From assembly GCA_029257435.1 (NCBI GenBank), contig JARIBI010000062.1, positions 1-37,244 of the forward strand: a stretch of DNA of 37,244 bases. Reading direction: 5' to 3'. Source of the DNA: Sporosarcina sp. (GTDB lineage: Bacteria; Bacillota; Bacilli; Bacillales_A; Planococcaceae). Below, piece by piece: positions 5,853 to 37,187 of the stretch (position 1 is its first letter; the number at the start of each line of letters is the position of its first letter). Under the pieces are notes generated by a model that ran no database searches, was not told the origin of the DNA, and saw only the letters and a list, made by a program, of their open reading frames with translations. The translations under genes and the position numbers were made by a program.

Positions 5853-6021
5853 GCTCGGGTCCAAGAACGATAGCCCGGCGAACCATTGGAAGCTCTCATT
5901 CTTTCATCCCTAAATGCGCAGCGTAGCGGAGCAGACCAATCAGTCTTGGTTTTGCTCGGGGAAAGATGGATTGGTCGCGAGTTAGGAAAAAGATTGGAGA
6001 AAGTATACAGCCGCGGGAATG
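5853..6021. repeat. 169-bp inter-array spacer/leader, copy 1
   Basis: This is the first of three near-identical 169-bp segments placed between the 21-bp arrays. It contains an 8-bp inverted repeat, GACCAATC at 5934-5941 and GATTGGTC at 5969-5976, around a loop holding TTGGTTTTGCTCGGGG. The right arm ends 46-47 bp before the first unit of the next array, and the segment closes with CCGCGGGAATG. No ORF of credible composition is present. Confidence 0.85.
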
Positions 6022-6121
6022 GAGCGGTTCGGTGGCGGTTTCGAGCGCTTACTTGGCTGAATGGAGCGCTTAACCGGCGGCAACGAGCGGTTACTCGGCT
6101 AAATGGAGCGCTTCGCCGAAC
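6022..6121. repeat. Tandem array C: five 21-bp units
   Basis: Units start at 6022, 6043, 6064, 6085 and 6106. The last is cut to 16 bp before the word GAGCGGGTCC that opens the next spacer. This is the shortest array in the block. Its first unit (GAGCGGTTCGGTGGCGGTTTC) is identical to the first units of arrays D and E. Confidence 0.9.
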
Positions 6122-6290
6122 GAGCGGGTCCAAGAACGATAGCCCGGTGAACCATTGCAAGCTCTCATTCTTTCATCCCTAAATGCGTAGCGTAGCGGAG
6201 CAGACCAATCAGTCTTGGTTTTGCTCGGGGAAAGATGGATTGGTCGCGAGTTAGGAAGCAGATTAGAGGAAGTATGCTGCCGCGGGAATG
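6122..6290. repeat. 169-bp inter-array spacer/leader, copy 2
   Basis: This copy has the same length and nearly the same sequence as copy 1, including the intact GACCAATC ... GATTGGTC inverted repeat. The ATTGGT arm (6239-6244) is followed 47 bp later by array D. It differs from copy 1 near its right end (GCAGATTAGAGGAAGTATGCTG versus the AAAAGATTGGAG version). Confidence 0.85.
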
Positions 6291-6516
6291 GAGCGGTTCG
6301 GTGGCGGTTTCGAGCGGTTACTTGGCTGAATCGAGCGCTTAGCCGGTGGCAACGAGCGCTTACTTCGCTGAATCGAGCGCTTAACCGACGGCAACGAGCG
6401 GTTACTCGGCTGAATCGAGCGCTTAGCCGGCGACGACGAGCGCTTACTTGGCTGAATCGAGCGCTTAACCGGCGGCAACGAGCGGTTACTTGGCTGAATG
6501 GAGCGCTTAGCCGAAC
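6291..6516. repeat. Tandem array D: eleven 21-bp units
   Basis: Units start at 6291, 6312, 6333, 6354, 6375, 6396, 6417, 6438, 6459, 6480 and 6501, with no phase slip, and the last is cut to 16 bp as in array C. Array D is exactly six units (126 bp) longer than array C, so the two composite repeats differ by a whole number of units. Confidence 0.93.
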
Positions 6517-6685
6517 GAGCGGGTCCAAGGACGATAGCCCGGCGAACCACTGCAAGCTCTCATTCTTTTATCCCTAAATGCGTAGCGTAGCGGAGCACAC
6601 CAATTAGTCTTGGTTTTGCTCGGGGAGAGAATGATTGGTCGCGAGTTAGGAAAAAGATTGGAGAAAGTATACAGCCGCGGGAATG
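6517..6685. repeat. 169-bp inter-array spacer/leader, copy 3
   Basis: This is the third copy, again exactly 169 bp. Its inverted repeat has partly decayed (CACCAATT against GATTGGTC), leaving about six pairs, while the distance from ATTGGT (6634-6639) to the next array remains 47 bp. Confidence 0.83.
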
Positions 6686-6866
6686 GAGCGGTTCGGTGGC
6701 GGTTTCGAGCGGTTACTTGGCTGAATCGAGCGCTTAGCCGGCGGCAACGAGCGTTTACTCCGCTGAATCGAGCGCTTAACCGGCGGCAACGAGCGCTTAC
6801 TCCGCCGAATCGAGCGCTTAACCGGCGGCAACGAGCGCTTACTCGACTGAATGGAGCGCTTAGCCA
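6686..6866. repeat. Tandem array E: nine 21-bp units
   Basis: Units start at 6686, 6707, 6728, 6749, 6770, 6791, 6812, 6833 and 6854. The array ends about 35 bp before the terminator of the exonuclease gene, mirroring array A, which ends at the protease terminator. Confidence 0.92.
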
Positions 6867-6899
6867 AATAATCAGCTTCCCCCTTCTTAAACCCCCAAT

Positions 6900-6936
6900 A
6901 AAAAAACACTTCGCGCAATTACGAAGTGTCTTTTTT
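6900..6936 (-). terminator. Terminator downstream of the exonuclease gene
   Basis: An 8-bp stem, ACACTTCG with CGAAGTGT (6906-6913 and 6922-6929), has an 8-base loop and is flanked by A and T runs on both sides. It lies directly after the stop codon at 6938-6940 and could terminate in either direction. Confidence 0.75.
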
Positions 6937-6937
6937 A

Positions 6938-7573
6938 TTAGCAATTATTCAATTCATCGTTGACCTTACAGCAATACTGATAAATATTCGCAGTCGCACG
7001 ACAGTCAGTTATGCCGCTCATGGATTCTTGCTTGGTGCCGAGCAAAAAAGCTAACTTTTTCATTTTTTCTACATCCGTTAACTGACTTGCTACTTGTCGC
7101 GCTAATTTCGTTGTATCTACTACGGTATATTTAGGTAAATGAATAAGTGAGAAATCATGAAGTGACTCTAAAAAGCCCATTTCAAACGAGCTGTCATGGA
7201 TGACAATCGGCAACTCCCCGATATAAGAAATTAGGGGTTGAATCACATCCTCCATAATCGGTGAAGCTGTGATCTCTTCATTCGATAACCCTGTCCGTTG
7301 CGTCACTTCCAATGGAATATGCCGTTGAGGATTTACCAGCGATTCAAATCGCTCCTGTTCGATATGGTTTTCATAACGGATTGCCAGTACACTGATTATT
7401 TTATCTGCACCTGCGCGCATTCCGGTTGTTTCAAAATCCAGTACTACGTAATCCTGATGACAATCTTCTGTTGTTATATAATTGCTGCTTTTCGATTGTT
7501 TTCTGACACGAATGTTTTTCTGCATCGGCTGCTGATTCAAGAGCGCCTGGACAATCTTTCTTTGAGTCTCCAT
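6938..7573 (-). CDS. DnaQ/PolC-type 3'-5' exonuclease-like protein, degenerate active site
   Basis: The protein has an RNase H-like DEDD exonuclease fold. Numbering is from an in-frame GTG at 7582. Motif I is VLDFETTG (D49, E51), and VNPQRHIPLEVTQRTGLSNEEI is typical of DnaQ proteins. Motif II reads HDSSFEMGFL, with Glu134 where the family has Asp. Motif III reads MSGITDCRATA: D193 is kept, but the catalytic His five residues earlier is Met188. If the alignment is right the enzyme is weakened or inactive. The first 40 residues are a basic extension. The GTG at 7582 lies only 2 bases from AAGGG, whereas the ATG at 7573 is about 10 bases away, so I start there (211 residues). It is a lone gene next to the repeat block. 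Its cellular role is not inferable. Confidence 0.8.
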   Translation of the reverse strand: METQRKIVQALLNQQPMQKNIRVRKQSKSSNYITTEDCHQDYVVLDFETTGMRAGADKIISVLAIRYENHIEQERFESLVNPQRHIPLEVTQRTGLSNEEITASPIMEDVIQPLISYIGELPIVIHDSSFEMGFLESLHDFSLIHLPKYTVVDTTKLARQVASQLTDVEKMKKLAFLLGTKQESMSGITDCRATANIYQYCCKVNDELNNC

Positions 7574-7730
7574 AAGTTGCACGTCCCTTAGTATAATAAC
7601 TTTCTATTCCCCTATTTTTTAAAAAGTATTCCTGAATTCAAGATTTATTTAAAATTCCATTAAAATACCGACTATTGGTTAGCTGCAGTGCTCTGAAATC
7701 TACATGGTATCGTTTTCATAATACTATATA

Positions 7731-7779
7731 AAAATAATCCGATTCAACAGTTTCACTGTCAAAACGGACTATTTTTATG
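7731..7779 (-). terminator. Terminator of the adaptor/Yip1 operon
   Basis: A nested hairpin lies 20 bases past the stop of the adaptor gene. The outer arms AAAAATAGTCCG and CGGATTATTTTT pair with one G-U on the minus transcript, and an inner ACAGT/ACTGT stem sits in the loop. It ends in a T run. Confidence 0.7.
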
Positions 7780-7798
7780 AATTTTGCGTGTCAATGGT

Positions 7799-9082
7799 TT
7801 ACGGCTGTTTTAACAACAGCACTTTAAAGTAGTTTTTCCAGCCAAATGCTTTCCATTCAGCTTTTGACGGCATATCTAAAGGCATCGGGAAGAATACACG
7901 GGGCGCACTTTCCTGATCACGGATGGATTTGTTGTGAACCACAACATCCCCTGAAGCGAGACCTTCTGTGACAACCGTGCGATTGAGATATTCAAACGGC
8001 GTCGCAACTCCTGTCGAGGATGCATATCCCTTTTCATCCAGTCGCCATACAAGTGCCTGATCTGTGCCTGCGCCCGTAAGCCATTTTGTACGGACTGCTG
8101 CGGCGTTTTGCGCAACATTTGTCGTGATGACTGTGTTTACATGTGTTCCAAATGGAGCTGGAACTTCTCCTTCATTCGCATTCAAACGAACTCGGTAATA
8201 GGCTAAAGGATTGGTAACCTTCTTATCTGCAAGCGCTTTGTACGCCTTCAAAAATTCGTTGGGTGTTGCAGGGACTTGATCAATCGATTCGACAGAACCT
8301 TCCAGCGTACCTTCTGTGCCTTTTGCATCCAACACTGCTGGATCTCCGTTCGCAAGTCGGCTCCACTCTTCGTCTTCTGCGTACGTTTCAACCACTTGTT
8401 CATTGCTGTAAATGATGATTTTCGGCTGATCGCTATCACTCGTAATGCGTGCAACGACTCCATCTGTCGGACTGATCAGCGCAGGACTTGCAGAGTTTTG
8501 CTCTAACTGAGATTCGACTACTTTCAGTCGGCGTTCCGTATCTGCAAGATCCCGTTTTGCTTCTGCGACCGCTTGCGCATAAGATCCAGTTTGGTTAACA
8601 TCCACTTTCACATCGACATTTAACTCTACTTTCGTATCATCATCTGTTTTAGTCCGGTCTGATTTGGATGAATTCGAGCTATTTGTCTTATCTCCTGATT
8701 CTAAATCGGAAATTGTCGAACGGATTGTATTTTGCTGAGTGAGCAGCGCTTCTTTTTCAGACTCCCAAACGGCACGTTGACCGTCCGCTTGTTCTGTCTG
8801 CAGACGCGCAAGTTCCTCACCAGTCGTCACCGCATCGCCTTCACGTACGAGCCACGTGTCAATTGCATTGCTGTCGTTCGTATACACTGTGAACGTTTCA
8901 GCTGGCGCAACAAGCCCTTCTTTCGGCAATACTTCTTTATATTCTTTTGCTGACATACGTTCGTAGTCGCTCACATATACTGACTTCGGAATTACACTTT
9001 TATCCGAGTACATCAAGTAAAGGTTCAGTGCGACAAAAATACTGACAACAACCGCAATTACTGCATTTGTAGTTTTGTTCAT
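7799..9082 (-). CDS. Membrane-fusion/efflux adaptor protein (HlyD/RND-adaptor-like)
   Basis: This 427-residue membrane-anchored extracellular adaptor has an N-terminal transmembrane helix at about residues 7-26. A biotinyl-lipoyl-like half motif follows (about 60-100, with WLVREGDAVTTGEELARL). Then comes a long polar coiled-coil region with a low-complexity Ser/Asp/Lys/Val stretch (about 105-205). The returning half reads SPTDGVVARI, and a beta-barrel/membrane-proximal part ends in KNYFKVLLLKQP. Such proteins usually couple to an ABC exporter such as YknYZ, but no ATPase or permease gene lies beside it. Its ATG overlaps the stop of the upstream Yip1-like gene by four bases (ATGA), so the two are translationally coupled and probably work together. 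The substrate is unknown. Confidence 0.8.
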   Translation of the reverse strand: MNKTTNAVIAVVVSIFVALNLYLMYSDKSVIPKSVYVSDYERMSAKEYKEVLPKEGLVAPAETFTVYTNDSNAIDTWLVREGDAVTTGEELARLQTEQADGQRAVWESEKEALLTQQNTIRSTISDLESGDKTNSSNSSKSDRTKTDDDTKVELNVDVKVDVNQTGSYAQAVAEAKRDLADTERRLKVVESQLEQNSASPALISPTDGVVARITSDSDQPKIIIYSNEQVVETYAEDEEWSRLANGDPAVLDAKGTEGTLEGSVESIDQVPATPNEFLKAYKALADKKVTNPLAYYRVRLNANEGEVPAPFGTHVNTVITTNVAQNAAAVRTKWLTGAGTDQALVWRLDEKGYASSTGVATPFEYLNRTVVTEGLASGDVVVHNKSIRDQESAPRVFFPMPLDMPSKAEWKAFGWKNYFKVLLLKQP

Positions 9083-9771
9083 GACGAAGTGCCTCCTGAC
9101 ATGACATAGTTGAAGAGGCGTTCAAATGGAATGTACCCGATTGCCGTTGTCAGCAAAGCGAATACGATCTGCAATCCGATAAGAACTGCGAGCAGACTTT
9201 TCCAGTTCATCGTTTTTGTGTAGGAACGGATGAAACTGAACTGCAAACTCACGATGAGCGCAGAGATGATCGTTAACTGATTGAGGAACATGACTAAAAA
9301 CCATGTGTCCGAAAATGTTGCAGTCAGCGGACCAAATGATAGAAATGAAACATTTGTCGCTTCCCCTTTTACTACGAACACAAGGAAGACAAGTGCTTTT
9401 TCAATAAGTAACACACCGGTAACCAGTAATTGAAGCGGTACAATCCGACGAACCGGAATCGATGTTAACAGGCCAAGGATATAAGAAACAAAGAACAGAT
9501 GAAAAGCTATGTAGAGTACTGCCCATAAAATAGCACCAATCACGGAAACAAACCGCGCAATGGTATAATCACCATCTGTTGCAAGTGCAAGCATAGGGCT
9601 AAGAGATTCGGTTGTCATTCCCCATATGTCACGTAATGCAAAGATTACGATTCCAGAAAGAAAAAGGAAGACAATTCGTAAGTTGAATCCGCGCATTGCC
9701 GAACTTTGGTGATTCATCGCGAGTTGTGAGGGATTCGTTACATAGCGCCAGAACGAAAAGTTGAAAAACAT
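9079..9771 (-). CDS. Yip1-family-like polytopic membrane protein
   Basis: This 230-residue protein has about five hydrophobic helices (roughly 31-47, 74-103, 115-134, 157-185, 192-213). The N-terminus, FWRYVTNPSQLAMNH, resembles the entry segment of bacterial YIP1-domain proteins. The start is ATG with AAAGGA about 9 bases upstream. A possible promoter, TTGCAA-N16-TAAAGT, lies just upstream. It is the first gene of a two-gene operon with the adaptor, sharing a 4-base overlap. I infer that it is the membrane partner of that adaptor. The family call rests on topology and the N-terminal motif only. Confidence 0.65.
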   Translation of the reverse strand: MFFNFSFWRYVTNPSQLAMNHQSSAMRGFNLRIVFLFLSGIVIFALRDIWGMTTESLSPMLALATDGDYTIARFVSVIGAILWAVLYIAFHLFFVSYILGLLTSIPVRRIVPLQLLVTGVLLIEKALVFLVFVVKGEATNVSFLSFGPLTATFSDTWFLVMFLNQLTIISALIVSLQFSFIRSYTKTMNWKSLLAVLIGLQIVFALLTTAIGYIPFERLFNYVMSGGTSS

Positions 9772-10016
9772 GGGATAATTCCTTTCTTGTCAAAGATGGA
9801 AACGGATTTTCGATAATAACTTCCTATGCTCTACTTTAGCAAAATCTACAAGATTTGCAAAGATTTCATGTGGGAAACATTCGATAAAAGACGAATTGAT
9901 AGACTTAATTTTAGAAATGTGTTTCTAAGTGCCCCTAAAGTGGGTAATGAATAACTAGTAAGCAAGTTGACTATACTCCATACATCACGGATTAATCTTT
10001 CCGGAAATAGCGCGTT

Positions 10017-10030
10017 ATTTCCCGGGAAAT
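10017..10030. promoter_or_regulatory. Perfect 14-bp palindrome before the small membrane-peptide gene
   Basis: ATTTCCCGGGAAAT is a perfect palindrome, ending 7 bases before the AGGAG Shine-Dalgarno (10038-10042) of the plus-strand 38-codon gene. A second short palindrome, TTCCGGAA, lies at 9999-10006. Upstream, TTGACT at 9966 could be a -35, but no good -10 follows. The 280-base gap from 9772 to 10051 otherwise shows only the divergent promoter regions of the Yip1-like gene and this peptide gene. Confidence 0.35.
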
Positions 10031-10051
10031 CGACAAAAGGAGCGGAGTACA

Positions 10052-10168
10052 TTGGAAAATAATACTCAAACTCGAAAAATGGCATATATGTCTTGGCAAG
10101 ATATTGCATTTGGTCTAACTGGGTCAGCATTATTCGTCGTGCTATTATTCATTTTTACTGGACTATGA
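10052..10168 (+). CDS. 38-residue single-pass membrane peptide
   Basis: This is a TTG-initiated ORF of 38 codons with a strong Shine-Dalgarno (AAAAGGAG, 9-base spacer). It encodes a polar N-terminus (MENNTQTRKMAYMSWQDIAF) followed by one hydrophobic helix ending LLFIFTGL. A strong terminator starts 27 bases after the stop. The start signal, topology and terminator together make it a credible gene, although it is too short for ordinary gene callers. It stands alone on the plus strand between two minus-strand operons. I recognise no family, and its function is unknown. Confidence 0.6.
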   Translation: MENNTQTRKMAYMSWQDIAFGLTGSALFVVLLFIFTGL

Positions 10169-10195
10169 TGAGAAACCCAATCATAAAAACCCATT

Positions 10196-10235
10196 AAAAA
10201 ACACCTATCTCTTAACAAATGATAGGTGTTTTTTT
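10196..10235. terminator. Bidirectional terminator
   Basis: Arms AAAAAACACCTATC and GATAGGTGTTTTTT pair perfectly (14 bp) around an 11-base loop. It sits between the converging 38-codon plus-strand gene and the minus-strand IDEAL-domain gene (stop at 10244) and can serve both. Confidence 0.88.
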
Positions 10236-10243
10236 ACGTGGCG

Positions 10244-10708
10244 TTATTCAGTTTGTACATTCGGTGTGCGCATTCCTTCCGTCAGTTCAGTGAACAGTGC
10301 TTTATCGTTGTTTTCCAAGGCATAATCAATCATACGCAATCGGTTCTCCAATTCCAATTCACCAATCAGCTGCTCAATCTCACGTGCTTGCGGTTCAGAT
10401 AATTCCGGGGCCAGGTGGAAGATGCCTTCTAACACGCCTGATAAATGAAGGTGCAAGTCGGAAATCAGCAACAATTGGTACAGCGGTAATCGGATGAACC
10501 GGCTGCCTCGCTGAAAGACGAATACCTCTCCTAAGTTTTCGACTTGCAGGCTTTTCATGTTGATGACGATTTCTTTCCCTTCAATCGGGACAAATTGAAA
10601 GACTTCTTGACCTTTCAGAATCGAAAAGTACTGATATGCAAATACTAGTCGCAGACGGAAATCTTCTTTACTCGTATAAAATGGAGTCATTCGTTTCACT
10701 GATAGCAT
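10244..10708 (-). CDS. IDEAL-domain protein
   Basis: This 154-residue soluble protein carries an IDEAL-type segment at its C-terminal end (about residues 113-147). It reads ELENRLRMIDYALENNDKALF, matching the family pattern of a helix, an IDxAL core and D-K-x-F. The N-terminal 100 residues (KEDFRLRLVFAYQYFSILKG, VFVFQRGSRFIRLPLYQLLL) look like a compact alpha/beta domain I cannot name. The IDEAL motif occurs in small Firmicutes proteins, several of them adaptors or competence-related. The start is ATG with GGAGGGG about 7 bases upstream. It appears to be transcribed alone and ends at the shared terminator. Confidence 0.65.
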   Translation of the reverse strand: MLSVKRMTPFYTSKEDFRLRLVFAYQYFSILKGQEVFQFVPIEGKEIVINMKSLQVENLGEVFVFQRGSRFIRLPLYQLLLISDLHLHLSGVLEGIFHLAPELSEPQAREIEQLIGELELENRLRMIDYALENNDKALFTELTEGMRTPNVQTE

Positions 10709-10837
10709 CTGAATCCCCTCCGAATTTGAATATTCCGATTATTTATAGTCTATCACAACCGAGCTCTATTTGTGAATGATAAATGCCTGACTTAAGTAAC
10801 TATATGTTACGGAGAGAAAGGCTATTTCGCTAATTGC

Positions 10838-11167
10838 TTATTCCTTTTTATTATTAGGTGAAAACATGCAAAAGGACAAGCTTTGCGGCAGGAATTCTTC
10901 AATACCAAATTCTCGCAGCGCCTTTATTACAGCTTCCGCCAGCAGCCTATTGGATCGGTTCACCTGATTAAATGTAATCGTATCTCTTGAATAGTCCACT
11001 GTAATTGAGTCAAAAAACGACTCCCCTACCGTTGCCGAAATAATGTACATCGTCTGACGCTCTCGCACATCAATAATTCCAGCAGAACTCGCGGGTTTCA
11101 GTTTCGTCTGCAACAGACTCTCCCGATTTGCAATCAATTTTCTCAACCCAGGGATGTAGACGATCAT
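10838..11167 (-). CDS. Uncharacterised 109-residue protein
   Basis: I do not recognise a family. The protein is mixed alpha/beta: a basic N-terminus (IPGLRKLIANRESLLQTKLK), a central segment with beta character (TMYIISATVGESFFDSITVDY), a predicted helix (NRLLAEAVIKALREFGIEEF) and a short polar tail. The ATG at 11167 lacks a well-spaced Shine-Dalgarno: AAAAAGGAG lies 20 bases upstream, and no in-frame start is closer. Start misassignment, or a small frameshift at the 5' end, is possible. It lies between the IDEAL gene and the structured element at 11282-11375. Confidence 0.5.
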   Translation of the reverse strand: MIVYIPGLRKLIANRESLLQTKLKPASSAGIIDVRERQTMYIISATVGESFFDSITVDYSRDTITFNQVNRSNRLLAEAVIKALREFGIEEFLPQSLSFCMFSPNNKKE

Positions 11168-11281
11168 TTGTCCAGATATAACTGTTCACTCCTTTTTAGT
11201 TGATGAAATAGGATATTGGCTTGCTTTGATACATCTTTCAACAGTTCCCACTATGAATTATCCTTTGCTTGAAGTAAAAGC

Positions 11282-11375
11282 GGACCGTTAGGAGCACATC
11301 TTTGCTTTCGCAAGCGAATCCTGAAGACTGAAATTCAGTCCATCGGAAAGCGTTCTGCCCGTAAAGCAACGGTCC
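11282..11375. other. Structured three-hairpin element (possible small RNA or mobile repeat)
   Basis: Outer arms GGACCGTT (11282-11289) and AACGGTCC (11368-11375) are perfect complements. They enclose a GCTT/AAGC hairpin (11304-11315) and a 7-bp hairpin GACTGAA/TTCAGTC (11326-11340). The arrangement is a closed multi-branch junction of 94 bases. It lacks a T run, so it is not a terminator. It lies between divergent genes, upstream of the ywqB promoter. No known riboswitch class is recognised. Confidence 0.45.
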
Positions 11376-11434
11376 CACATTACTTGCCTTTTAAATAATA
11401 TTGACATGTTTTTTCGTTTCCCGAATGTGATGAT

Positions 11435-11463
11435 TTACGAAGGTCACTGAACTGATGTATAAT
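11435..11463 (+). promoter_or_regulatory. Sigma-A promoter of ywqB-ywqA
   Basis: TTACGA (11435-11440), a 17-bp spacer and a perfect TATAAT (11458-11463) place the transcript start near 11470. That would make the ATG at 11471 leaderless and favours the TTG at 11498, which has its own Shine-Dalgarno. Confidence 0.65.
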
Positions 11464-11497
11464 AGAAAGAATGCTTTGTCTAGGGAGTGGTTTTATT

Positions 11498-13078
11498 TTG
11501 CGCGTCGCTGCAGAACGTATTTCGTATTTGCATGAACGAGAAATCGAGAAGATGATGAATGATGTCCACTATACATTTAGACCCGATAATCCGGACCAGT
11601 CCGAGATTATCCGAAACGCCATTACTGCTGTGAGAAGAGGGGCAATCTCTTCATACCGTTATTCTCAGGATGACGGAGAAGTCCTCGCACAACTCAATGA
11701 CCGTGCTTCCGAATTTGTACGATTTTCGTTCGAGGAGCAAACGTTAAGCTGCACATGCGGTCGCAAGGAACGCTGCGTCCACCAGCTTACGGTCGTCTTT
11801 GACCTGTACTCTCAATTCCATTCATTAACCGAGTGGTTTCAAGAATGGCGGACTTCTGTAAAAGAACAGCTTGCCCTAAAAGTTACAGAGCGTACGCCTG
11901 AAGCGTGGGAATCCGTTTTGACACGGGTCACTGCCCCGCTTCGTAAACTTACCTTATCGACTAACTCATCTGTGTTCACATATGAATGTGCGGAAATTCA
12001 GAATCGTGTCAAACCACTTATGCCGTTTGAATACGAGTGGAAGCCGCTTTTCGACTTATTCTATCGCCTGCACTTAGTGGATTCGGCTTTTGAGTATGCC
12101 GCTTCTATACTTTCATCCGGTCAATCCCAACATTCTTACGGGACGTGGCAAGTCACGACTTGGCTCAATGACCAGATCTCCGATATTGAAAAATTAGCAG
12201 GGACGTTCAGTAACAAGCCAAAGTTATTTGAAACGGATCCGTTCATGAAACGGTTAAAAGAGCTTGTCCATTCCGTCTGTGTCCATCAAATCGATCTGTT
12301 CCCATATCGATTCCGCATTTACGAAGCCATATGGGGGCAGCTGTTTATAGACCGCAGCGAGCGCGAATCAGAGAAACTGCAGCTCGCAGAAGATGCCTCT
12401 GCTGATGCACGTCTGTTTGCAATGTATTTTGCCATCATCGAAGGACGCGGAGACATCCTGGAAAATGCGCTTGCTGAAGAAGAGCATCCTGACTTCGGCA
12501 GCTGGATGACGCTCGCTAGATTTGCGCTCACTGAAGCGCTTGCGCCGACTGCTGCATCCATTGCCAGAGGTCTTTATCCGTCGATTGAAGCGTATTTCAG
12601 TGAAAAGAAAAGCAGAAGCGAGCAGCTTTCTGCAGCTCACGAAATCGACATGCTCCTCGCAAACGGTGATTTTTCTGATGAAGAACGGGAAGCCGTATTC
12701 GCCATGTATGGAAAAATCGGGATTCCCCGATATTCAAATTTTTTAATCGAACGGGAACGGTATTCGGATTGGGCGGCGCTTTTACACCGCTTCAACGTGC
12801 CGTATGACAGTGTCGAACAGGATGACTTGAAGATTGTGTTATCTGAGCAGCCAGGTGCGGCACTTCCTTTACTGCATGATTACGCACAGCAATTCATCGC
12901 CGAAAAAAATCGCTTGAGCTACCGCCGCGCAGTGAAGCTGTTCAAACGCATGCGCACTGCATGCAAAAAAAGCGGTCAAACCGAATTTTGGAACCGGTAC
13001 ATCCGAACGGTGCGGGATAAGTACCGCCGGCTTCGCGCTTTAGTTGAAGAAATGGAGAGGGGTAGTCTTGAATTATGA
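11498..13078 (+). CDS. ywqB: SWIM zinc-finger protein (YwqB-like)
   Basis: This 526-residue protein has a SWIM zinc finger at residues 85-95, reading CTCGRKERCVH (C85, C87, C93, H95; CxCx5CxH). SWIM domains bind DNA or protein, and this family is regularly paired with a SNF2 helicase. The remaining 430 residues are helix-rich with no catalytic motif visible. I start at TTG 11498 (AGGGAG 10 bases upstream) because the promoter at 11435-11463 puts the upstream ATG at the transcript start. Its stop overlaps the ATG of ywqA by four bases, so the pair is translationally coupled. By analogy with the B. subtilis ywqB-ywqA pair, it probably acts as an accessory subunit of the helicase. Confidence 0.85.
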   Translation: MRVAAERISYLHEREIEKMMNDVHYTFRPDNPDQSEIIRNAITAVRRGAISSYRYSQDDGEVLAQLNDRASEFVRFSFEEQTLSCTCGRKERCVHQLTVVFDLYSQFHSLTEWFQEWRTSVKEQLALKVTERTPEAWESVLTRVTAPLRKLTLSTNSSVFTYECAEIQNRVKPLMPFEYEWKPLFDLFYRLHLVDSAFEYAASILSSGQSQHSYGTWQVTTWLNDQISDIEKLAGTFSNKPKLFETDPFMKRLKELVHSVCVHQIDLFPYRFRIYEAIWGQLFIDRSERESEKLQLAEDASADARLFAMYFAIIEGRGDILENALAEEEHPDFGSWMTLARFALTEALAPTAASIARGLYPSIEAYFSEKKSRSEQLSAAHEIDMLLANGDFSDEEREAVFAMYGKIGIPRYSNFLIERERYSDWAALLHRFNVPYDSVEQDDLKIVLSEQPGAALPLLHDYAQQFIAEKNRLSYRRAVKLFKRMRTACKKSGQTEFWNRYIRTVRDKYRRLRALVEEMERGSLEL

Positions 13079-15816: not shown

Positions 15817-15829
15817 CGGAAGTCTTGAT

Positions 15830-15862
15830 CCGCAAATCACGCCCGTGGTTTGCGGTTTTTTT
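15830..15862 (+). terminator. Terminator of ywqB-ywqA
   Basis: An 11-bp stem, CCGCAAATCAC with GTGGTTTGCGG (one G-U), a 4-base loop and seven T residues lies 14 bases past the ywqA stop. Confidence 0.9.
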
Positions 15863-15876
15863 ATGTAAATCAACAG

Positions 15877-22846: not shown

Positions 22847-23002
22847 AAGTGCACTTTACCAATCAACTCTTTGGTCTTCTCTCAGACTCTGAGGAATTTT
22901 CAACGTCGTTCAGGGATTACTTGGTGGCGCTTCGCTTGTTGGACGGGCTATTTCATTGGGTATACGCTTACTGCGGTGAAGATAAAGGGTATATTTTTTG
23001 CC
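22847..23002. repeat. Leader of array F, homologous to the 36.7-kb leader
   Basis: The first 27 bases (22847-22873) are identical to 36734-36760 and begin with the palindrome AAGTGCACTT followed by TACCAATCAACTC. A second conserved block, TTGGTGGCGCTTCGCTTGTT (22921-22940), matches 36827-36846 with one change. ACCAAT and the later TTGGT can pair. The last 40-60 bases are AT-rich and may be decayed units. The 514-base gap 22731-23244 holds only the spoIIID promoter, this leader, array F and the spoIIQ terminator. Confidence 0.75.
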
Positions 23003-23163
23003 TTATGATCACTTTTGGGATGCTTATGAGCAGCTTCTTGCGTTTATGATCACTTTCTCTGCGTTATGATCATATTTGCAAGTTTATGATCACTATTCTG
23101 GATTTATGAGCGATTCCCCACGTTTATGAGCGGTATTCCATTTTTATGAGCACATACCACATG
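23003..23163. repeat. Tandem array F: eight 20-bp TTATGA(T/G)CAC units
   Basis: TTATGA occurs at 23003, 23024, 23044, 23064, 23084, 23104, 23124 and 23144, so the period is 20 bp after one 21-bp first step. The first units read TTATGATCAC (with the TGATCA palindrome) and later ones TTATGAGC. The remaining half of each unit varies. The array ends in short CACATG repeats (23161-23176) before the spoIIQ terminator. Confidence 0.88.
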
Positions 23164-26961: not shown

Positions 26962-27021
26962 AATGATCTACTCCCGTTGCGTACTTCTTTAGTTTCATGA
27001 AGTACGTTTTTGGCTGACTTT

Positions 27022-27057
27022 AAAAAAATCGGACAGAAGGTTCTCCCCTGTCCGATT
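27022..27057 (-). terminator. Terminator of the ATP synthase operon
   Basis: A 10-bp stem, AATCGGACAG with CTGTCCGATT (27027-27036 and 27048-27057), is followed on the minus transcript by seven T residues, 14 bases after the atpC stop. Confidence 0.92.
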
Positions 27058-27071
27058 CGCTCATATCCGCC

Positions 27072-27467
27072 TTACATGCCGGAAACTTTAATACGGTTAA
27101 TGGCCCTGCGCAAGCTCAGTTCAGCCATTTGCTGCTCCACTTTGTTCTTTTTCTGCTGGAGTTCAGCTTCTGCTTTACGCTGCGCAAGTTCTGCACGTGC
27201 TAAGTCAATGTGAGAAGCAAGTTCTGCACTTTGGGCAAGCACTGTGACAACATCCGGACGGACTTCCAAGAAGCCGCCGTTTACTGCCACGTGTTCTGTG
27301 GAATTGCCGTTTTTAAGACGAAGTGCGCCGATGTCAAGTGGTGCTACCATCGCGATGTGTCCTGGCAAAATACCAAGTTCACCCGTTTCAGTAACAGCAA
27401 TCACCATATCCGCTTCTGTTTCGCTGACAGGGCCGTCGGGAGTGACGATATTAACTTTTATCTTCAT
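27072..27467 (-). CDS. atpC: ATP synthase F1 epsilon subunit
   Basis: This 131-residue subunit of the F1 central stalk inhibits ATP hydrolysis. The N-terminal beta-sandwich carries [17 protein letters not shown] and [16 protein letters not shown]. The C-terminal two-helix part contains [16 protein letters not shown] and ends in [12 protein letters not shown]. Length and motifs are normal. The ATG has GGAGGGG about 7 bases upstream. It is the last gene of the operon, 24 bases after atpD. Confidence 0.96.
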
Positions 27468-27491
27468 AATTTCCCCTCCTGGTCCCTTTTA

Positions 27492-29811
<2,320 letters not shown>

Positions 29812-29856
29812 CTATTCACCACCTTTTAGTTTTAGTCCCGTAGTCCGTTACTTAAC

Positions 29857-31380
<1,524 letters not shown>

Positions 31381-31395
31381 TCATCTTTCAAGATT

Positions 31396-31932
31396 TTAAC
31401 CAATCAACGTACGCTCCAGCTTAGCAAGCTTGCTGCTAATGCTGCTGTCGAAGATTTGGTTTCCGATCTGAAGGCGAATGCCTCCGATCAATTTTGGTTC
31501 AATAATTGTTTGAATCTGAAGCGACTGTTTGCCGACTTTGTGAGCAAACGCGCTGGAAATTGCTGTTTCTTCCTGTTCAGTTAATGGACGTGTTGCATAA
31601 ACTGTCGCTTCCGCAACACCCGATGCATCGTTTGCTAACTGGTGGAAGTCTTCGAGAACGTCGCTAAGTTCAGTCATACGGTCAGCATCAAGCATCACGT
31701 ATAGTGCGTTGAGTAATAACTCTTGTGCACCCGGCAGGACATTAGCGATCAATTCACGTTTTTTGATCAAGGACAGTTGTGGTAAGCTCATAAGCTCCCC
31801 GAAGTCTTTGTTGCCGTCGAGTGCTGCTTGGAGCTCTCGAACGTCAGTGTGGACTGCGAGCAAGACGCCTTGTTCCTGAGCTGCTTTGAACAACCCAGTT
31901 GCATAACGTTCCGCTACGATAGAACGGCTCAT
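31396..31932 (-). CDS. atpH: ATP synthase F1 delta subunit
   Basis: This 178-residue peripheral stalk subunit joins the top of F1 to subunit b. The N-terminal helical domain opens with RSIVAERYATGLFKAAQEQG, and the C-terminal part has the signature EPKLIGGIRLQIGNQIFDSSI. Its ATG overlaps the atpF stop (ATGA), indicating translational coupling of the two stalk subunits. A Shine-Dalgarno GGGGAAGG lies within the end of atpF. Confidence 0.96.
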   Translation of the reverse strand: MSRSIVAERYATGLFKAAQEQGVLLAVHTDVRELQAALDGNKDFGELMSLPQLSLIKKRELIANVLPGAQELLLNALYVMLDADRMTELSDVLEDFHQLANDASGVAEATVYATRPLTEQEETAISSAFAHKVGKQSLQIQTIIEPKLIGGIRLQIGNQIFDSSISSKLAKLERTLIG

Positions 31933-32480
31933 CGGCCTTCCCCTGCCTTCACAATCGTTTCTTCGATCAATGCGCGGTTATCCTCCTCGGATACTTCTTT
32001 ACCGAGTACTTTAGTCGCTGCCATGATTGAAAGAGATACGAATTCTTCGCGTACAGCCGCGATTGCTTTTTCTCTCTCTGTTGCGATTTCGAGCGCTGCG
32101 TTTTCTTTCATACGACCCACTTCCGCGCGTGTCGTTTGAATGAGTTCCTCACGCTGTGCTTCGCCTTGCTTCTTCGCGTTTTCAACGATGACTAACGCGT
32201 TTGTATGTGCTTCTTTTAAAAGAGCACGTTGCTCTTCTAACAATTTCTGTGAGTCTAGACGACTTTGTTCAGCCGCTTCGATTTCATTTGCAATCATCTC
32301 AGCACGCTGATCCATAATCCCCATCAACGGTCCCCATGCGAATTTCTTCAATAGAAGCATGAGAATTGTGAAGAAGACCACTGTTGCAATGATATCACCT
32401 AAGTTCAGCCGTTGGTTCAGGCTGGATAAGAATCCTGAGTCAGCATTGCTTGACAAAAGGACGAAGGTATCCAAAAACAC
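31929..32480 (-). CDS. atpF: ATP synthase Fo subunit b
   Basis: This 183-residue peripheral stalk subunit has an N-terminal membrane helix (about 29-47, IIATVVFFTILMLLLKKFAW) and a long charged helix up to the C-terminus (LDSQKLLEEQRALLKEAHTN and similar). The start is GTG with AAGGGAG about 10 bases upstream. It is separated from atpE by 256 bases, unusually far for this operon, with a hairpin in the gap. It overlaps atpH by four bases. Confidence 0.95.
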   Translation of the reverse strand: MFLDTFVLLSSNADSGFLSSLNQRLNLGDIIATVVFFTILMLLLKKFAWGPLMGIMDQRAEMIANEIEAAEQSRLDSQKLLEEQRALLKEAHTNALVIVENAKKQGEAQREELIQTTRAEVGRMKENAALEIATEREKAIAAVREEFVSLSIMAATKVLGKEVSEEDNRALIEETIVKAGEGR

Positions 32481-32582
32481 GATTGTTTCACTCCCTTCAA
32501 AAACTTACGTCTGATCTACAAACGTTCTGGTTAGAATGATTAGTTCGAGCAAAGACATGCCCGATATCCGCTGACATAAACG

Positions 32583-32620
32583 AATGGCGAAGGATACATC
32601 TTTTTCCATTCTTCGCCATT
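32583..32620 (-). other. Intercistronic hairpin between atpE and atpF
   Basis: AATGGCGAAG (32583-32592) and CTTCGCCATT (32611-32620) form a perfect 10-bp stem with an 18-base loop, about 103 bases upstream of atpF and 117 bases past the atpE stop. There is no T run, so it is probably an RNA processing or stabilising element rather than a terminator. The 256-base gap has no ORF I can support. Confidence 0.6.
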
Positions 32621-32736
32621 GTTTAACGTTCTTATAAAGTGGTTAGGTAATAGAAGGAGTCATACAGGCTGGCAAGACCGCAGTGCAGCCCAGGCCCTAT
32701 CCGTTTCATTAACTACCTGAATTGAATCTGTGTAAA

Positions 32737-34137
<1,401 letters not shown>

Positions 34138-34186
34138 GGTAGGTGAGTCTCCTATTACGATAAGTTTAGTTAGAAACTGAAACGCC

Positions 34187-34418
34187 CGGCTTTTGGTTTA
34201 GAAGCCGAACAGCGAGCGGGTTCGCAGGTTGGTACGCGTTGGCTTGTCCGAGATGCACGGCAACCACTTACTGATCAGCTGTCTCGGAAAGGTTCCGGAC
34301 GAAGATGGTAAGAAAAGTGCCGCCTGCTTGGCGTTCACCAGGACACGTTGTCCAACGTATCGCACTGATGCCCAACAATTCAAGTGCGATAGGCTACGAG
34401 TGATGATAGAACTTAGCC
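34187..34418 (-). ncRNA. Structured 5' leader of the atp operon (candidate cis-RNA)
   Basis: Between the atp promoter and atpI lies a GC-richer stretch with several perfect stems. These are CGGCTT/AAGCCG (34187-34207), TCCGAGA/TCTCGGA (34247-34253 with 34282-34288, competing with GTCCG/CGGAC at 34246/34296), CGTT/AACG (34346-34357), TATCGCACT/AGTGCGATA (34358-34366 with 34383-34391) and GGCTA/TAGCC (34392-34396 with 34414-34418). I recognise no known riboswitch. The AT-rich remainder (34511-34739) shows nothing beyond the promoter region. Confidence 0.5.
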
Positions 34419-34481
34419 AAAAAATCAAGCGGTTTCAGCTGATTTATCTATGTATAAACCCTATCATTATTACCCTCTATA

Positions 34482-34510
34482 AGCATACAATAGCGGTATT
34501 TTGATGTCAA
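34482..34510 (-). promoter_or_regulatory. Sigma-A promoter of the atp operon
   Basis: A perfect TTGACA (complement of 34505-34510), a 17-bp spacer and TATGCT (complement of 34482-34487) form the best sigma-A promoter in the window. Transcription would start near 34475, about 338 bases before the atpI ATG. Confidence 0.8.
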
Positions 34511-34739
34511 TTGATTCCCGTGAAATTCTTCACATACTATTAGCACTGTCAAATAATCGTCACACTTTCATAGGATTTCGCCGTATTTCTAAAATTTAGG
34601 GATTCCCCTTACTTTTCCGTGTGAATTTCCACAACAGTTATAGCGCGATAACATTTGCAAATTTAAGCTTTCAGCATATTTGTAGTCCTTCTCTCTTACT
34701 TTCCTTACTTTAGCTGTTTGAGAGAACTATAGAAATAGA

Positions 34740-34769
34740 AAAAGCAGAGGGTTGTTAGCCTCTGCTTTT
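34740..34769 (-). terminator. Terminator of upp-mnaA
   Basis: A perfect 11-bp stem, AAAAGCAGAGG with CCTCTGCTTTT, and an 8-base loop lie 18 bases past the mnaA stop. Confidence 0.9.
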
Positions 34770-34787
34770 CCACTAACTTTTATTCAT

Positions 34788-35909
34788 TTAGTTTTGTTCG
34801 TTTAAATATTTTTTCAAAGCTTCCACGATTCGTTCGGATGCGTGGCCGTCTCCGTAAGGGTTGGACGCTTTTGCCATAGAGTCGTATGCGGTTTGATTGG
34901 AGAGAAGTTCATCTGCTAAGTTGAAGATCGTCTCTTCGTCCGTTCCCGCTAATTTGAGTGTTCCGGCGTCGATTCCTTCCGGCCGTTCTGTTGTATCACG
35001 AAGGACGATAACAGGTTTGCCGAGCGAAGGGGCTTCTTCTTGGATGCCGCCCGAGTCCGTTAAGATGATATGTGAACGCGCTGCAAAGTTATGGAAATCC
35101 ACAACTTCGAGTGGCTCGATCAAATGAATCCGGTCATTATTTCCGAGTAATTCATCCGCAACTTCACGGACTGCTGGATTCATGTGAACTGGATAGATCA
35201 CCTGAATGTCATCGTGTTTTTCGAGTAGGCGGTTAATCGCACGGAACATATTGCGCATCGGATCCCCTAAATTTTCGCGGCGGTGTGCCGTCAGCAAGAC
35301 AAGCCGGTCAGTTCCGAGCTTTTCAAAAATCGGATGCGTGTACGTGTCATCGACAGTAGTATGCAGCGCATCGATTGCCGTATTCCCCGTAATGTAGATC
35401 CGGTTTTCCGGCTTTCCTTCATTAATTAAGTTTTGCGCCGACTTTTCTGTTGGTGAGAAATGAAGGTCTGCCAGAACGCCCGTCAGCTGACGATTCATCT
35501 CTTCCGGATATGGAGAGTACTTGTCCCATGTACGAAGACCCGCTTCAACGTGTCCGACTGCGATTTTGTTATAAAATGCCGCCAGACTGCCGACGAATGT
35601 CGTAGCGGTGTCACCGTGAACGAGTACGATATCGGGCTGTGCTTCTTTCATAATCCCGTCAAGACCTTCAAGTCCTCGAGTTGCAACATCGATAAGAGTT
35701 TGACGGTCTTTCATAATATTCAGGTCGAAGTCAGGTGTGATCCCGAACGTTTTCAGCACTTGGTCCAACATTTCACGGTGCTGAGCCGTTACAGTCACAA
35801 TCGATTCGATTTCGTCTTCATGCTTTTGCAGTTCGAGAACGAGCGGAGCCATTTTGATGGCTTCCGGACGCGTTCCGAAAATAGTCATTACTTTCCATTT
35901 GCGTTTCAA
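34788..35909 (-). CDS. mnaA: UDP-N-acetylglucosamine 2-epimerase (non-hydrolysing)
   Basis: This 373-residue GT-B-fold enzyme interconverts UDP-GlcNAc and UDP-ManNAc, which feeds wall teichoic acid linkage-unit and other polymer synthesis. The N-terminus KVMTIFGTRPEAIKMAPLV is diagnostic. Predicted catalytic residues are D100 (VHGDTATT), E122 (GHVEAGLRT), E136 (YPEEMNR) and H209 (TAHRREN). The C-terminal lobe carries LTDSGGIQEEAPSLGKPV and RDTTERPEG. I start at TTG 35909 (MKRKWKVM), about 10 bases from GGGGAGGG. The GTG at 35918 lies only 2 bases from it. It probably shares the upp transcript (20-base gap). Confidence 0.94.
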   Translation of the reverse strand: MKRKWKVMTIFGTRPEAIKMAPLVLELQKHEDEIESIVTVTAQHREMLDQVLKTFGITPDFDLNIMKDRQTLIDVATRGLEGLDGIMKEAQPDIVLVHGDTATTFVGSLAAFYNKIAVGHVEAGLRTWDKYSPYPEEMNRQLTGVLADLHFSPTEKSAQNLINEGKPENRIYITGNTAIDALHTTVDDTYTHPIFEKLGTDRLVLLTAHRRENLGDPMRNMFRAINRLLEKHDDIQVIYPVHMNPAVREVADELLGNNDRIHLIEPLEVVDFHNFAARSHIILTDSGGIQEEAPSLGKPVIVLRDTTERPEGIDAGTLKLAGTDEETIFNLADELLSNQTAYDSMAKASNPYGDGHASERIVEALKKYLNEQN

Positions 35910-35929
35910 ACTGTTCACGCCCTCCCCAA

Positions 35930-36559
35930 TTATTTGGTTCCGAACAAACGGTCCCCGGCATCGCCGAGTCCAGGTACAATGTATCCGTGATCGTTCAGTT
36001 TTTCATCCAGTGCCGCGATGTAAACATCTACGTCAGGGTGTGCATCTGTAAATACTTTTACGCCTTCAGGAGCTGCGATCAGACACATGAATTTGATGTG
36101 TTTCGCTCCGCGCTTTTTCAATGAATTGACGGCTTCTACTGCTGTTCCGCCTGTTGCAAGCATGGGATCGACGACGATCAATTCACGTTCTGATACGTCA
36201 GACGGCAACTTCACGAAATATTCGTGCGGCTGCAATGTTTCCGGATCGCGGAATAAACCGACGTGTCCCACTCTTGCTGCCGGGATCAGTTTTAGAATCC
36301 CATCTACCATCCCAATTCCTGCACGCAGGATAGGCACGATTCCAAGTTTTTTCCCTGCAAGTACGTTCGATTTCGCCATGCAAACCGGCGTTTCAACGTC
36401 TACTTCTTGAAGGGGGAGCTCCCGTGTAATTTCAAAAGCCATCAATGTAGCAACTTCGTCTACGAGTTCACGGAATTCTTTGGTTCCTGTGTTTACGTCG
36501 CGGATGAAGGTAAGTTTGTGCTGGATGAGCGGGTGATCGAATACGTGTACTTTAGCCAT
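35930..36559 (-). CDS. upp: Uracil phosphoribosyltransferase
   Basis: This 209-residue type I phosphoribosyltransferase converts uracil and PRPP to UMP in pyrimidine salvage. The PRPP loop is [11 protein letters not shown] (D131). [12 protein letters not shown] is the dimer/pyrophosphate region, and the uracil-binding C-terminus ends [18 protein letters not shown] start at ATG 36559 ([16 protein letters not shown]), which has AAAAGGAG about 8 bases upstream. A longer in-frame extension to 36715 crosses the promoter and is rejected. In B. subtilis glyA lies upstream; here a repeat block follows instead within the window. Confidence 0.97.
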
Positions 36560-36584
36560 TAGAATCGCTCCTTTTACTTTGTCC

Positions 36585-36613
36585 AATACAGTATAACAGA
36601 ATGATGCCGTCAA
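36585..36613 (-). promoter_or_regulatory. Sigma-A promoter of upp
   Basis: TTGACG (complement of 36608-36613), a 17-bp spacer and TGTATT (complement of 36585-36590) give a leader of about 20 bases before the upp ATG. There is no room for a PyrR-type attenuator in that leader. Confidence 0.5.
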
Positions 36614-36733
36614 CGGTTGTCTGGTGCGAAGTTTGGAATTTCCGGAACATTTACACGGTTGTGTTGTGTAGTTTTTGCGTTGTCGAACACGTATAGCGGA
36701 TTGTCCGACGCCCATCGCGGGTTCTTAATCACT

Positions 36734-36879
36734 AAGTGCACTTTACCAATCAACTCTTTGCATTTCTTCATCAGTTAGCGGAGTTTCTCGATAACGGAAC
36801 ACAGTTCAACTTGTTTAAGGGATTAATTGGTAGCGCTTCGCTTGTTGAGGGATGGGCTATTCCAATGGCTTGGGTGGAA
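36734..36879. repeat. Leader of array G (copy 1)
   Basis: It starts with the palindrome AAGTGCACTT and is identical to 22847-22873 over its first 27 bases. TACCAATCAACTC (36744-36756) pairs with GGATTAATTGGTA (36820-36832) at 10 of 13 positions. ATTGGT (36826-36831) lies 49 bp before the next array, close to the 47 bp in the 169-bp spacers of the 6-kb block. The 685 bases from 36560 to the end of the window contain only the upp promoter and these repeats. Confidence 0.75.
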
Positions 36880-36990
36880 TCGGACAGATGGCGGTTAGTA
36901 TCGGACACGTTCGGTAAAGAATCGGACACTTGGCGCAGGGAATCGGACAAATTCCGTGAACAATCGGCCACTCCAGCGAATTAATCAGCC
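36880..36990. repeat. Tandem array G1: six 21-bp TCGGACA units
   Basis: TCGGAC or close variants occur at 36880, 36901, 36922, 36943, 36964 (TCGGCC) and 36985 (TCAGCC), always 21 bp apart. The last two units are degenerate. Confidence 0.9.
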
Positions 36991-37076
36991 AACGCACACA
37001 ATTCAACTGCATTAAGAGATTAATTGGTAGCGCTTCGCTTTTTGAGAGATGGGCTATTTCAGCGGCTCGAGCGGAA
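36991..37076. repeat. Short leader of array G (copy 2)
   Basis: This is a shortened version of the leader: it keeps GATTAATTGGTAGCGCTTCGC and GATGGGCTATT but lacks the AAGTGCACTT start. ATTGGT (37023-37028) again lies 49 bp before the first array unit. It begins CGCACACAATTCAACT, a word that recurs at 37191 after the second array. Confidence 0.75.
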
Positions 37077-37187
37077 TCGGACAGATGGTGGTTAGTATCG
37101 GACACGTTCGGTAAAGAATCGGACACTTGGCGCGAAGTATCGGCCAGATTCTGCGAACAATCCGACACTCCAGCGAATTAATCAGCC
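37077..37187. repeat. Tandem array G2: six 21-bp TCGGACA units
   Basis: Units start at 37077, 37098, 37119, 37140, 37161 and 37182, an exact 21-bp period. G1 and G2 are offset by 197 bp and nearly identical, so leader plus array was duplicated in tandem. The window ends 57 bp later, and the word CGCACACAATTCAACT after the array suggests that a third copy may begin there. Confidence 0.9.

Follow-up and report, generated by a model that had tools for sequence, protein, structure and literature searches.

Intergenic direct-repeat arrays with a fixed 20/21-bp spacing and changing words in Sporosarcina

Arrays and leaders in the window

The window, by which we mean the whole 37,244-nt stretch of Sporosarcina DNA analysed, holds eight arrays of short direct repeats in four intergenic gaps, all on the plus strand and six of them with a leader in front. 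The repeated words are GAGCG at 21 bp, TTATGAKCR at 20 bp and ATCRGMCA at 21 bp. Arrays of the GAGCG word lie at 127–345 (21-bp period, ∼10 units of alternating types), 5627–5857 (21-bp period, 11 units), 6022–6113 (array C, ∼5 units), 6291–6513 (array D, 21-bp period) and 6686–6863 (array E, 21-bp period). The TTATGAKCR array F (23003–23150; 20-bp period, eight units) occupies the gap between spoIIID and spoIIQ, with six intervals of 20 bp and one of 21 bp. Two arrays of the ATCGGACA word, G1 upstream of upp (36879–36990) and G2 (37076–37187), have a 21-bp period and ∼6 units each. The initial annotation had described three periodic loci with unrelated unit words. The GAGCG/AGCGCT units at 5.6–6.9 kb (21 bp), the TTATGA units at 23003–23150 and the ATCGGACA units at 36.88–36.99 and 37.08–37.19 kb are all present, but the GAGCG array at 127–345 makes a fourth locus, and while the words do differ, TTATGAGCG and AATGAGCG have ATGAGCG in common.

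Two kinds of leader precede the arrays, also on the plus strand. Leader A stands before array C (5905–6021, with ACCAATCA at 5935, the inverted repeat ACCAA-TCAGTC-TTGGT and ATTGGTCGCG at 5970), array D (6174–6290, with ACCAATCA at 6204 and ATTGGTCGCG at 6239) and array E (6570–6685, with ACCAATTA at 6599 and ATTGGTCGCG at 6634). Leader TQ stands before array F (22847–22957), where it has a 27-base block common to G1 plus a GCGCTTCGCTTGTT block, and before G1 (36731–36864); a partial copy before G2 (36994–37061) consists of the right part only, without the ACCAATCA arm. The 27-base block, pointed out earlier as common to the F and G leaders, is an exact match at 22847 and 36734. Inverted-repeat arms had been placed before C, D, E and both G arrays; the right arm is found at all of them, but the left arm ACCAATCA is absent at G2, and E carries ACCAATTA. 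The arm ATTGGTNGCG at 5970, 6239 and 6634 is followed by first words at 6022, 6291 and 6686 (C, D, E), and at 36826 and 37023 by first words at 36879 and 37076 (G1, G2). The intervening distance is constant as proposed, at 42 bp for C, D and E and 43 bp for G1 and G2, the original 47 and 49 bp having been counted from another edge. In the F leader, the block CTTGGTGGCG (22920), which resembles ATTGGTNGCG, ends 73 bp ahead of the first TTATGA. ACCAATCA also occurs without an array at 9535, 10361, 31399 and 33832, where ∼1 occurrence is expected in the window by base composition.

A search with leader profiles, built mostly from the window copies and run on a set that includes the window, gave 31 matches to the F/G leader in 2.25 Mb and 24 to the C/D/E leader. 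An array followed within 350 bp in 19 of the former; of the latter, 19 had one downstream and five had one upstream, compared with 131 of 3000 random positions. The proposed composite of leader and array thus reflects a strong link, but not an absolute one, as some leaders have no array. The picture of a constant leader joined to interchangeable arrays survives in that each of two leader families occurs with several words: the F/G leader stands ahead of ATCGG, TTATGA and TCGGAA arrays, the C/D/E leader ahead of GAGCG, GCTTGA and AATCGA arrays. In a sister species, TTATGA arrays (L410) lie behind a C/D/E-type leader (three partial matches, E = 1e-5 to 4e-4). The leader is not, however, the organising principle of the arrays, because several arrays in relatives sit just past the end of a gene and lack a recognisable leader, the F/G leader partly consists of a decayed 21-bp array on the opposite strand, and some leaders are arrayless.

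Abundance and placement of the arrays

Three TTATGA words at 20 bp, with no mismatch, matched 93 + 141 times in the genome of the window, and three GAGCG words at 21 bp, with at most one mismatch, 128 + 96 times, while the reversed control of each gave 0 + 0. The reversed TTATGA control did match, 1–11 times, in four genomes of one other genus (G026, G097, G105 and G112). Arrays make up ∼1–3% of the sampled Sporosarcina DNA, where the 3% sample was partly picked for having an array. Among other genera, one of 20 genomes had an array in the start of its first contig, two of these samples being shorter than 20 kb.

Within 1.2 Mb, only two of 58 arrays lie mostly inside an open reading frame of at least 250 aa, though such frames cover 61%. 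Two arrays within long open frames count against reading the arrays as binding sites. Convergent (11/98), divergent (8/110) and co-directional (31/406) gaps carry arrays with no clear preference, and orientation relative to the downstream gene, counted over 37 entries for a subset of the array loci, is not consistent (opposite to same strand in the genome of the window: TTATGA 3:3, ATCGG 8:7, GAGCG 7:2). A regulatory role is therefore not visible from gap type or orientation, and the same counts led us to reject an element linked to terminators or promoters.

Fixed spacing and changing words

At the orthologous spoIIID-spoIIQ gap, an array is present in 30 of 67 Sporosarcina genomes, a dozen or more different words being used, compared with 0 of 1340 dinucleotide shuffles. 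The intervals there, from a detector that admits spacings of 19–23 bp, were 19 bp (1), 20 bp (129), 21 bp (202) and 22 bp (6), with 51 doubled intervals of 39–42 bp. A word-blind spectrum of lags 8–63 in 400 kb from 20 Sporosarcina genomes returned 20, 21 and their sums only (20 bp, 6; 21 bp, 21; 40 bp, 4; 41 bp, 1; 42 bp, 10; 63 bp, 6, where one array may count at several lags). This sample was centred on spoIIID, with 10 genomes picked for an array there and 10 for none; eight of the latter carry one at another position within the 20 kb. Control lags of 14–18, 24–28 and 34–38 gave 0 in this sample and 29–33 gave 3, while lags of 10–14 also admit doubled spacings of 21–27 and hence count true arrays. 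The word-blind spectrum of 800 kb from one sister genome placed 43 of 48 cases at 20, 21 or their sums. In 28 TTATGA arrays, with spacings of 10–27 bp permitted, 284 of 300 intervals are 20 bp, 15 are 21 bp and one is 19 bp, and for the 80 spacers below 65% identity to all others in the same array, the interval is still 20 bp in 73. The same words are found at several loci per genome and at the same gap of related species, and TATGAKCR, mostly spaced at 20 bp, is present beyond Sporosarcina in another genus of the same family, in Fictibacillus and in Bacillus niameyensis.

Change is two to five times rarer in words than in spacers, in a comparison biased somewhat towards conservation by locating word positions through word patterns. 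Between the genome of the window and its sister G156, the TTATGA array aligns without gaps and has 0/72 word changes compared with 12/89 spacer changes (p = 6e-4), while the GAGCG array has 10/80 and 38/130 (p = 0.006), its unit-by-unit orthology being uncertain. Tandem ATCGG copies within the genome of the window, which are non-independent, have 35/1368 word and 305/2219 spacer changes, and 33 of the 35 word changes sit at the two degenerate letters. Four arrays compared between G200 and G201 have 1/192 and 5/310, too few changes to tell. Word and spacing are thus conserved against a freer spacer, the pattern of a protein-binding array, and among the three readings first put forward, the data favour a multi-site protein-binding element.

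An alternative that we consider unlikely is a neutral satellite, in which chance direct repeats ∼20 bp apart seed tandem duplication by slippage or unequal crossing-over, and word conservation is only apparent, as word-bearing units amplify. Dimer and higher-order units (40, 41, 42 and 63 bp) and copy-number differences among relatives speak of active tandem duplication, and B. niameyensis has arrays of ∼90 perfect copies, which look like plain recent expansion. The array copying suggested earlier accordingly holds as ordinary tandem duplication, with nothing beyond that needed. A neutral process leaves unexplained, however, why lags of 8–63 yield 20–21 bp and sums only, why spacing stays constant between unrelated spacers, and why the gap-free alignment has changes in spacers and none in words.

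The spacing also bears on readings at the level of RNA or protein. That the arrays are a transcribed non-coding RNA family, with repeated words binding protein or pairing with targets, is quite improbable. Both strands of the TTATGA array gave better folds than shuffled sequence (z = −2.0 and −2.7), an effect that the self-complementary TGATCA words in it could account for on their own. Folding of three leaders, the ATCGG array and the GAGCG array (both strands) resembled that of shuffles (z = −0.9 to 0.8), and a 20/21-bp rule is one to expect of double-stranded DNA rather than of RNA. Rfam at gathering score had no match in the window and only a T-box among 10 other loci; with no support from Rfam and little from folding, this earlier suggestion was rejected. 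Translated heptad-repeat proteins, with 21 bp as seven codons, are barely conceivable: open frames in GAGCG arrays reach 154 aa, and in two long arrays from relatives the frame stays open over 250 aa, but 20-bp and alternating 20/21-bp arrays break the frame. We rejected coding repeats, as seven array ORFs gave no Pfam family at cut-off (best TPR_12, 21.2 vs 30.1 bits). Three smaller candidates were also dropped: overlapping ATGA minigenes at 20-bp spacing, given a TAG stop inside the unit in G104; restriction-site arrays, given that non-palindromic words are frequent too; and the Bacillus subtilis Chi sequence, AGCGG, which is absent from the other words.

Known repeat systems and possible function

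REP/BIME elements with their RAYT transposases are interspersed intergenic repeats, some with hairpins. The arrays resemble them in being interspersed and intergenic in genomes with a Y1 transposase gene, but are 20/21-bp phased direct arrays unlinked to the transposase genes examined. An improbable origin would be a REP/MITE-like element, with a leader hairpin that a Y1 (RAYT-type) transposase or a reverse transcriptase mobilises and with arrays as cargo or target sites. Leaders do stand at many places joined to differing arrays, and the hairpin foot equals the array word in five of 10 Fictibacillus arrays. A Y1 transposase matched in 8/8 genomes, including the nearly array-free G021 and G066, and its stop-free form (∼55–68 bits) is missing from G021 only; G066, however, has the same form. 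Several arrays are leaderless, and none of seven stretches of 4–10 kb, covering eight of 13 Y1 matches, contains an array. With no clustering at Y1 genes and reverse transcriptase (RVT_1) absent from the array-bearing G200 and G191, we rejected both enzymes as array makers. A plasmid or phage origin was likewise rejected, the G leader and arrays matching neither plasmid nor phage and the C–E region no plasmid in the searches that covered those regions. A TTATGA-type pattern matched one viral contig.

Plasmid iterons of the Rep_3 type are direct head-to-tail repeats of about two helical turns, and many have a TGAGnG core, which the TGAGCG of the Sporosarcina arrays resembles. The arrays share the ∼20-bp tandem direct repeats with a conserved core but, unlike iterons, match hundreds of times genome-wide, with several words per genome and different words between species. 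Rep_3 (PF01051) was found in two of eight genomes (G000 and G169); iterons were rejected, this initiator missing in four array-bearing genomes (G156, G200, G122 and G191). CRISPR arrays similarly have direct repeats and variable spacers behind a leader, but the Sporosarcina repeats are 7–9 bp, with spacers of 11–14 bp that duplicate and drift, at very many loci on both strands. Noc and MatP sites are single palindromic sites of one sequence; like the candidate sites here they are sequence-specific and scattered over the chromosome, whereas Sporosarcina has phased arrays with several words. The bcr1-bcr18 elements of the Bacillus cereus group are described, in the passages of PMC6542083 consulted, as mostly chromosomal short interspersed repeats with units of 100–400 bp, each detected by a single consensus. 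On that description the arrays share dispersal of short repeats in a Bacillales genome but, unlike bcr elements, keep their period and change their sequence. Tested as RNA, as coding sequence, as products of RAYT or reverse transcriptase and as Rep_3 iterons, the arrays fit no known class. Searches of the open literature, including for bcr repeats and iterons, returned no description of such arrays, the texts covered being passages of PMC6542083 and PMC2267715.

With even confidence, we favour helically phased, head-to-tail sites for putative DNA-binding proteins whose specificity turns over, in arrays growing by tandem duplication. Asymmetric recognition sites of 7–9 bp, 20 or 21 bp (two helical turns) apart, would all lie on the same face of the double helix, where the putative binders, one sequence-specific protein for each word class, probably align cooperatively. 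Arrays in intergenic gaps would grow and shrink by duplication of one or two units, their word shifting over evolutionary time with binder specificity, and leaders may be older, partly decayed bits of the same repeat landscape, copied along with arrays. Selection on word and spacing, intergenic location and word turnover at fixed sites are supported; from these we infer a binding protein that acts cooperatively and serves to organise the chromosome or to insulate adjoining genes. No binding protein for the array words was found among the sequence analyses. At least three word classes per genome would need several proteins or one very tolerant one. More tentatively, and doubtful as it stands, the arrays could form a genus-wide system of chromosomal addressing: hundreds of intergenic arrays that nucleate filaments of a DNA-binding protein family, with two-turn spacing held constant, words diversifying as in an arms race of satellite and binder, several words to a genome and one or more of them mostly restricted to a single chromosomal region.

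Whereas a repeat family is usually recognised by its sequence, what stays conserved in these arrays is a length of two DNA turns, with a sequence that can vary from species to species and from locus to locus. Should the words prove to be binding sites, ∼1–3% of the sampled Sporosarcina DNA would serve a so far undescribed DNA-binding system, and the orthologous gaps of 67 genomes would offer a natural experiment in the joint change of a DNA-binding specificity and its many genomic sites.

Leaders and arrays in the window

The window, part of a 3.37 Mb draft genome, contains eight arrays spread over four intergenic gaps. Two of these gaps flank a 1650-aa serine-peptidase-like gene, one past its 3′ end and the other upstream of its 5′ end; a third runs from spoIIID to spoIIQ, and the fourth lies upstream of upp, the only gene flanking the window arrays whose name passed the curated cut-off. 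The words, which are the conserved cores of units otherwise made of spacer, are GAGCG every 21 bp, TTATGAKCR every 20 bp and ATCRGMCA every 21 bp, and a leader precedes six of the eight arrays. The initial annotation had proposed a constant leader with interchangeable arrays, and this is supported: leader TQ (before arrays F and G) and leader A, the inverted-repeat block before arrays C, D and E, each precede several words, and in G156, a near sister of the source genome, partial leader A matches stand before TTATGA arrays three times (L410). The fixed distance from arm to word, also claimed, is essentially right, at 42 bp for C, D and E and 43 bp for G1 and G2, but G2 is without the left arm and E has a variant.

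An array follows within 350 bp downstream of 19 of 31 TQ matches and 19 of 24 A matches, against 131 of 3000 random positions. Among the 12 TQ matches without an array, seven have a best lag of 21, an effect due in part to decayed TTCTCCGACAC units in the following leader copy. Another runs off the end of its stretch, and the remaining four give no signal. Since an array lies behind many but not all leader matches, the leaders are old companions of the arrays and not their obligate start.

The leader block GCGCTTCGC, at window positions 22927-22940 and 36833-36846, is the complement of GCGAAGCGC, which includes GCGAAGC, a very stable DNA mini-hairpin. Five of ten arrays in Fictibacillus (L269, L276, L437, L440 and L462) start where a CCAGC...GCTGG-type hairpin has its 3′ foot; two of the remaining five have no readable upstream sequence. 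This foot is the array word itself (ATGAGC, ACGAGC or ATGATC), so that the foot on the other side carries the word inverted.

Period, word and spacer

The rule common to the arrays is their period. A word-blind count, which tried each lag from 8 to 63 and scored any six-letter word recurring five times at exactly that lag, returned only lags 20, 21, 40, 41, 42 and 63 in a 20-genome sample (48 cases, where one array may score at more than one lag). The same count placed 43 of 48 cases in G156 at 20, 21 or multiples, the remainder falling at 12, 18 and 30, and 4 of 7 cases in other genera; it found no case over the stretches of the congeners G021 and G066. Across 28 TTATGA arrays, with a range of 10-27 permitted, 284 of the 300 intervals come to exactly 20 bp, and the 20-bp interval is held in 73 of 80 units whose spacer is unlike all others of their array. 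Many arrays alternate two unit types, with a common word and different spacers.

Word and spacer also diverge differently. In a gapless alignment of the TTATGA array between the source genome and G156, 0 of 72 word letters differ compared to 12 of 89 in the spacer (p = 6e-4); the GAGCG array, where unit orthology is less sure, differs at 10 of 80 word letters and 38 of 130 spacer letters (p = 0.006). Tandem copies of the ATCGG type, which are not independent, differ at 35 of 1368 word and 305 of 2219 spacer letters, and G200 and G201 differ at 1 of 192 word letters and 5 of 310 spacer letters, which is not enough change to judge by. Neutral satellite growth, an unlikely source of the arrays, should erode word and spacing jointly. 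Strict two-turn spacing, asymmetric head-to-tail words that are conserved while the spacers vary freely, and the return of one word at many loci are instead expected of protein sites lined up along one face of the DNA, and we see about an even chance that the arrays are such sites. A mobile element seems improbable, an RNA very doubtful and a coding repeat scarcely credible. Arrays change in length as blocks of one or two units are duplicated, and we infer a binding protein, its cooperativity and a benefit to the cell.

Genomic position and turnover

Among 68 genomes of the genus, the spoIIID-spoIIQ gap was located in 67 and holds an array in 30. Of the 54 with both neighbours in view, 23 have an array; the median gap is 659 bp with one and 179 bp without. 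Its words include TTATGAKC, AACCATT, TCGGTT, TGGTCGG and AACTCG, as well as TTGAGCGG, GAGAACTC, TATGATCG, GAATGGACC, TTTGGACGCG, TTTACGAGCG, TTGCGCGG and TTTGAGCG/TTTGATCAC. Among the arrays displayed for this gap, all GAGCG- and GATCG-like words lie on the strand opposite spoIIID, which suggests that an inherited array was altered in place and not newly inserted. The same gaps hold arrays in related species, often with the word kept and sometimes with another. ATCGG stands beside upp in the source genome, G171, G186, G200 and G201, and G151 and G116 retain the leader there without a clear array.

Only 2 of 58 arrays in the two samples lie mostly inside an ORF of at least 250 aa. Convergent, divergent and co-directional gaps are occupied at similar rates, and median array distances, by simple ORF calls, are 86 bp to gene 3′ ends and 165 bp to 5′ ends. 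In the even G156 sample the origin-near half, 22 of the 40 stretches, is denser and holds 20 of the 25 clusters (p = 0.014; 23 of 28 with two synteny stretches added, p = 0.007), with clusters and cut hand-picked, the cut set afterwards and the origin taken from GC skew. Fifteen of 17 ATCGG sites in G156 fall within 0.16-0.62 Mb, one seventh of the chromosome, while in the 840-kb sample the two remaining word classes are scattered more widely.

Distribution and relation to known systems

The source genome contains 234 matches to a three-unit TTATGA pattern without mismatch and 224 to a GAGCG pattern with at most one mismatch, each with none for the reversed pattern; these exceed array counts, as overlapping matches score one array several times. 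The G leader with its array, used as query, matched 68 pieces. Arrays of at least five words occur in 18 of 20 congeners (11.2 kb of array in 400 kb, 20 kb sampled each, ten genomes having been picked for an array at the centre), and in 840 kb of the complete G156 chromosome, taken as 40 evenly spread stretches and two added for synteny, 33 arrays with four or more words make up 7.4 kb. G021 has none in eight 20-kb stretches and G066 one in seven, so some congeners are nearly array-free.

Across 18 other genera of the family, 1 of 20 genomes has an array (one contig start per genome). Within the order, 24 genomes out of 261 have TTATGA-type 20-bp arrays; they belong to 2 of the 19 genera, 20 being congeners (out of 68) and four belonging to g7, another genus. 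Such arrays also occur in Fictibacillus and Bacillus niameyensis; Sporosarcina makes up most of the named records. Other family genera carry 20-bp arrays of more words, TTATGACCGGATAG, GTTATGAATTAAGGAG and TTTACGAGCTTTATTT (L113, L125 and L132 in G104; L111 in G077; L112 in G031). The reversed control AGTATT per 20 bp gave 1-11 matches each in G026, G097, G105 and G112 of g7, where it is perhaps a further array word. Two B. niameyensis arrays (L274, L436) hold about 90 near-perfect 20-bp copies each, with units TATGAGCGAG(T/A)TTCGGATTT that differ by one base between the arrays, and are a very recent expansion. Short isolated 20-bp arrays outside Bacillales, on an uncultured Eubacterium contig (L295) and a viral contig (L356) (TTATGATCATGATAAAGAAG; TTATAAATGCTCATAAATGC), may be unrelated.

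Iterons are the nearest functional likeness, but the iteron initiator Rep_3 was not found in four array-bearing genomes. The bcr repeats, REP/RAYT elements and CRISPR each have one defining feature unlike the arrays. Searches of an open-access paper collection returned no description of the arrays, and an earlier one may exist in subscription journals. What the arrays conserve is a period, not a sequence. Their probable mode of action, through in-phase protein sites, belongs to a known sort.
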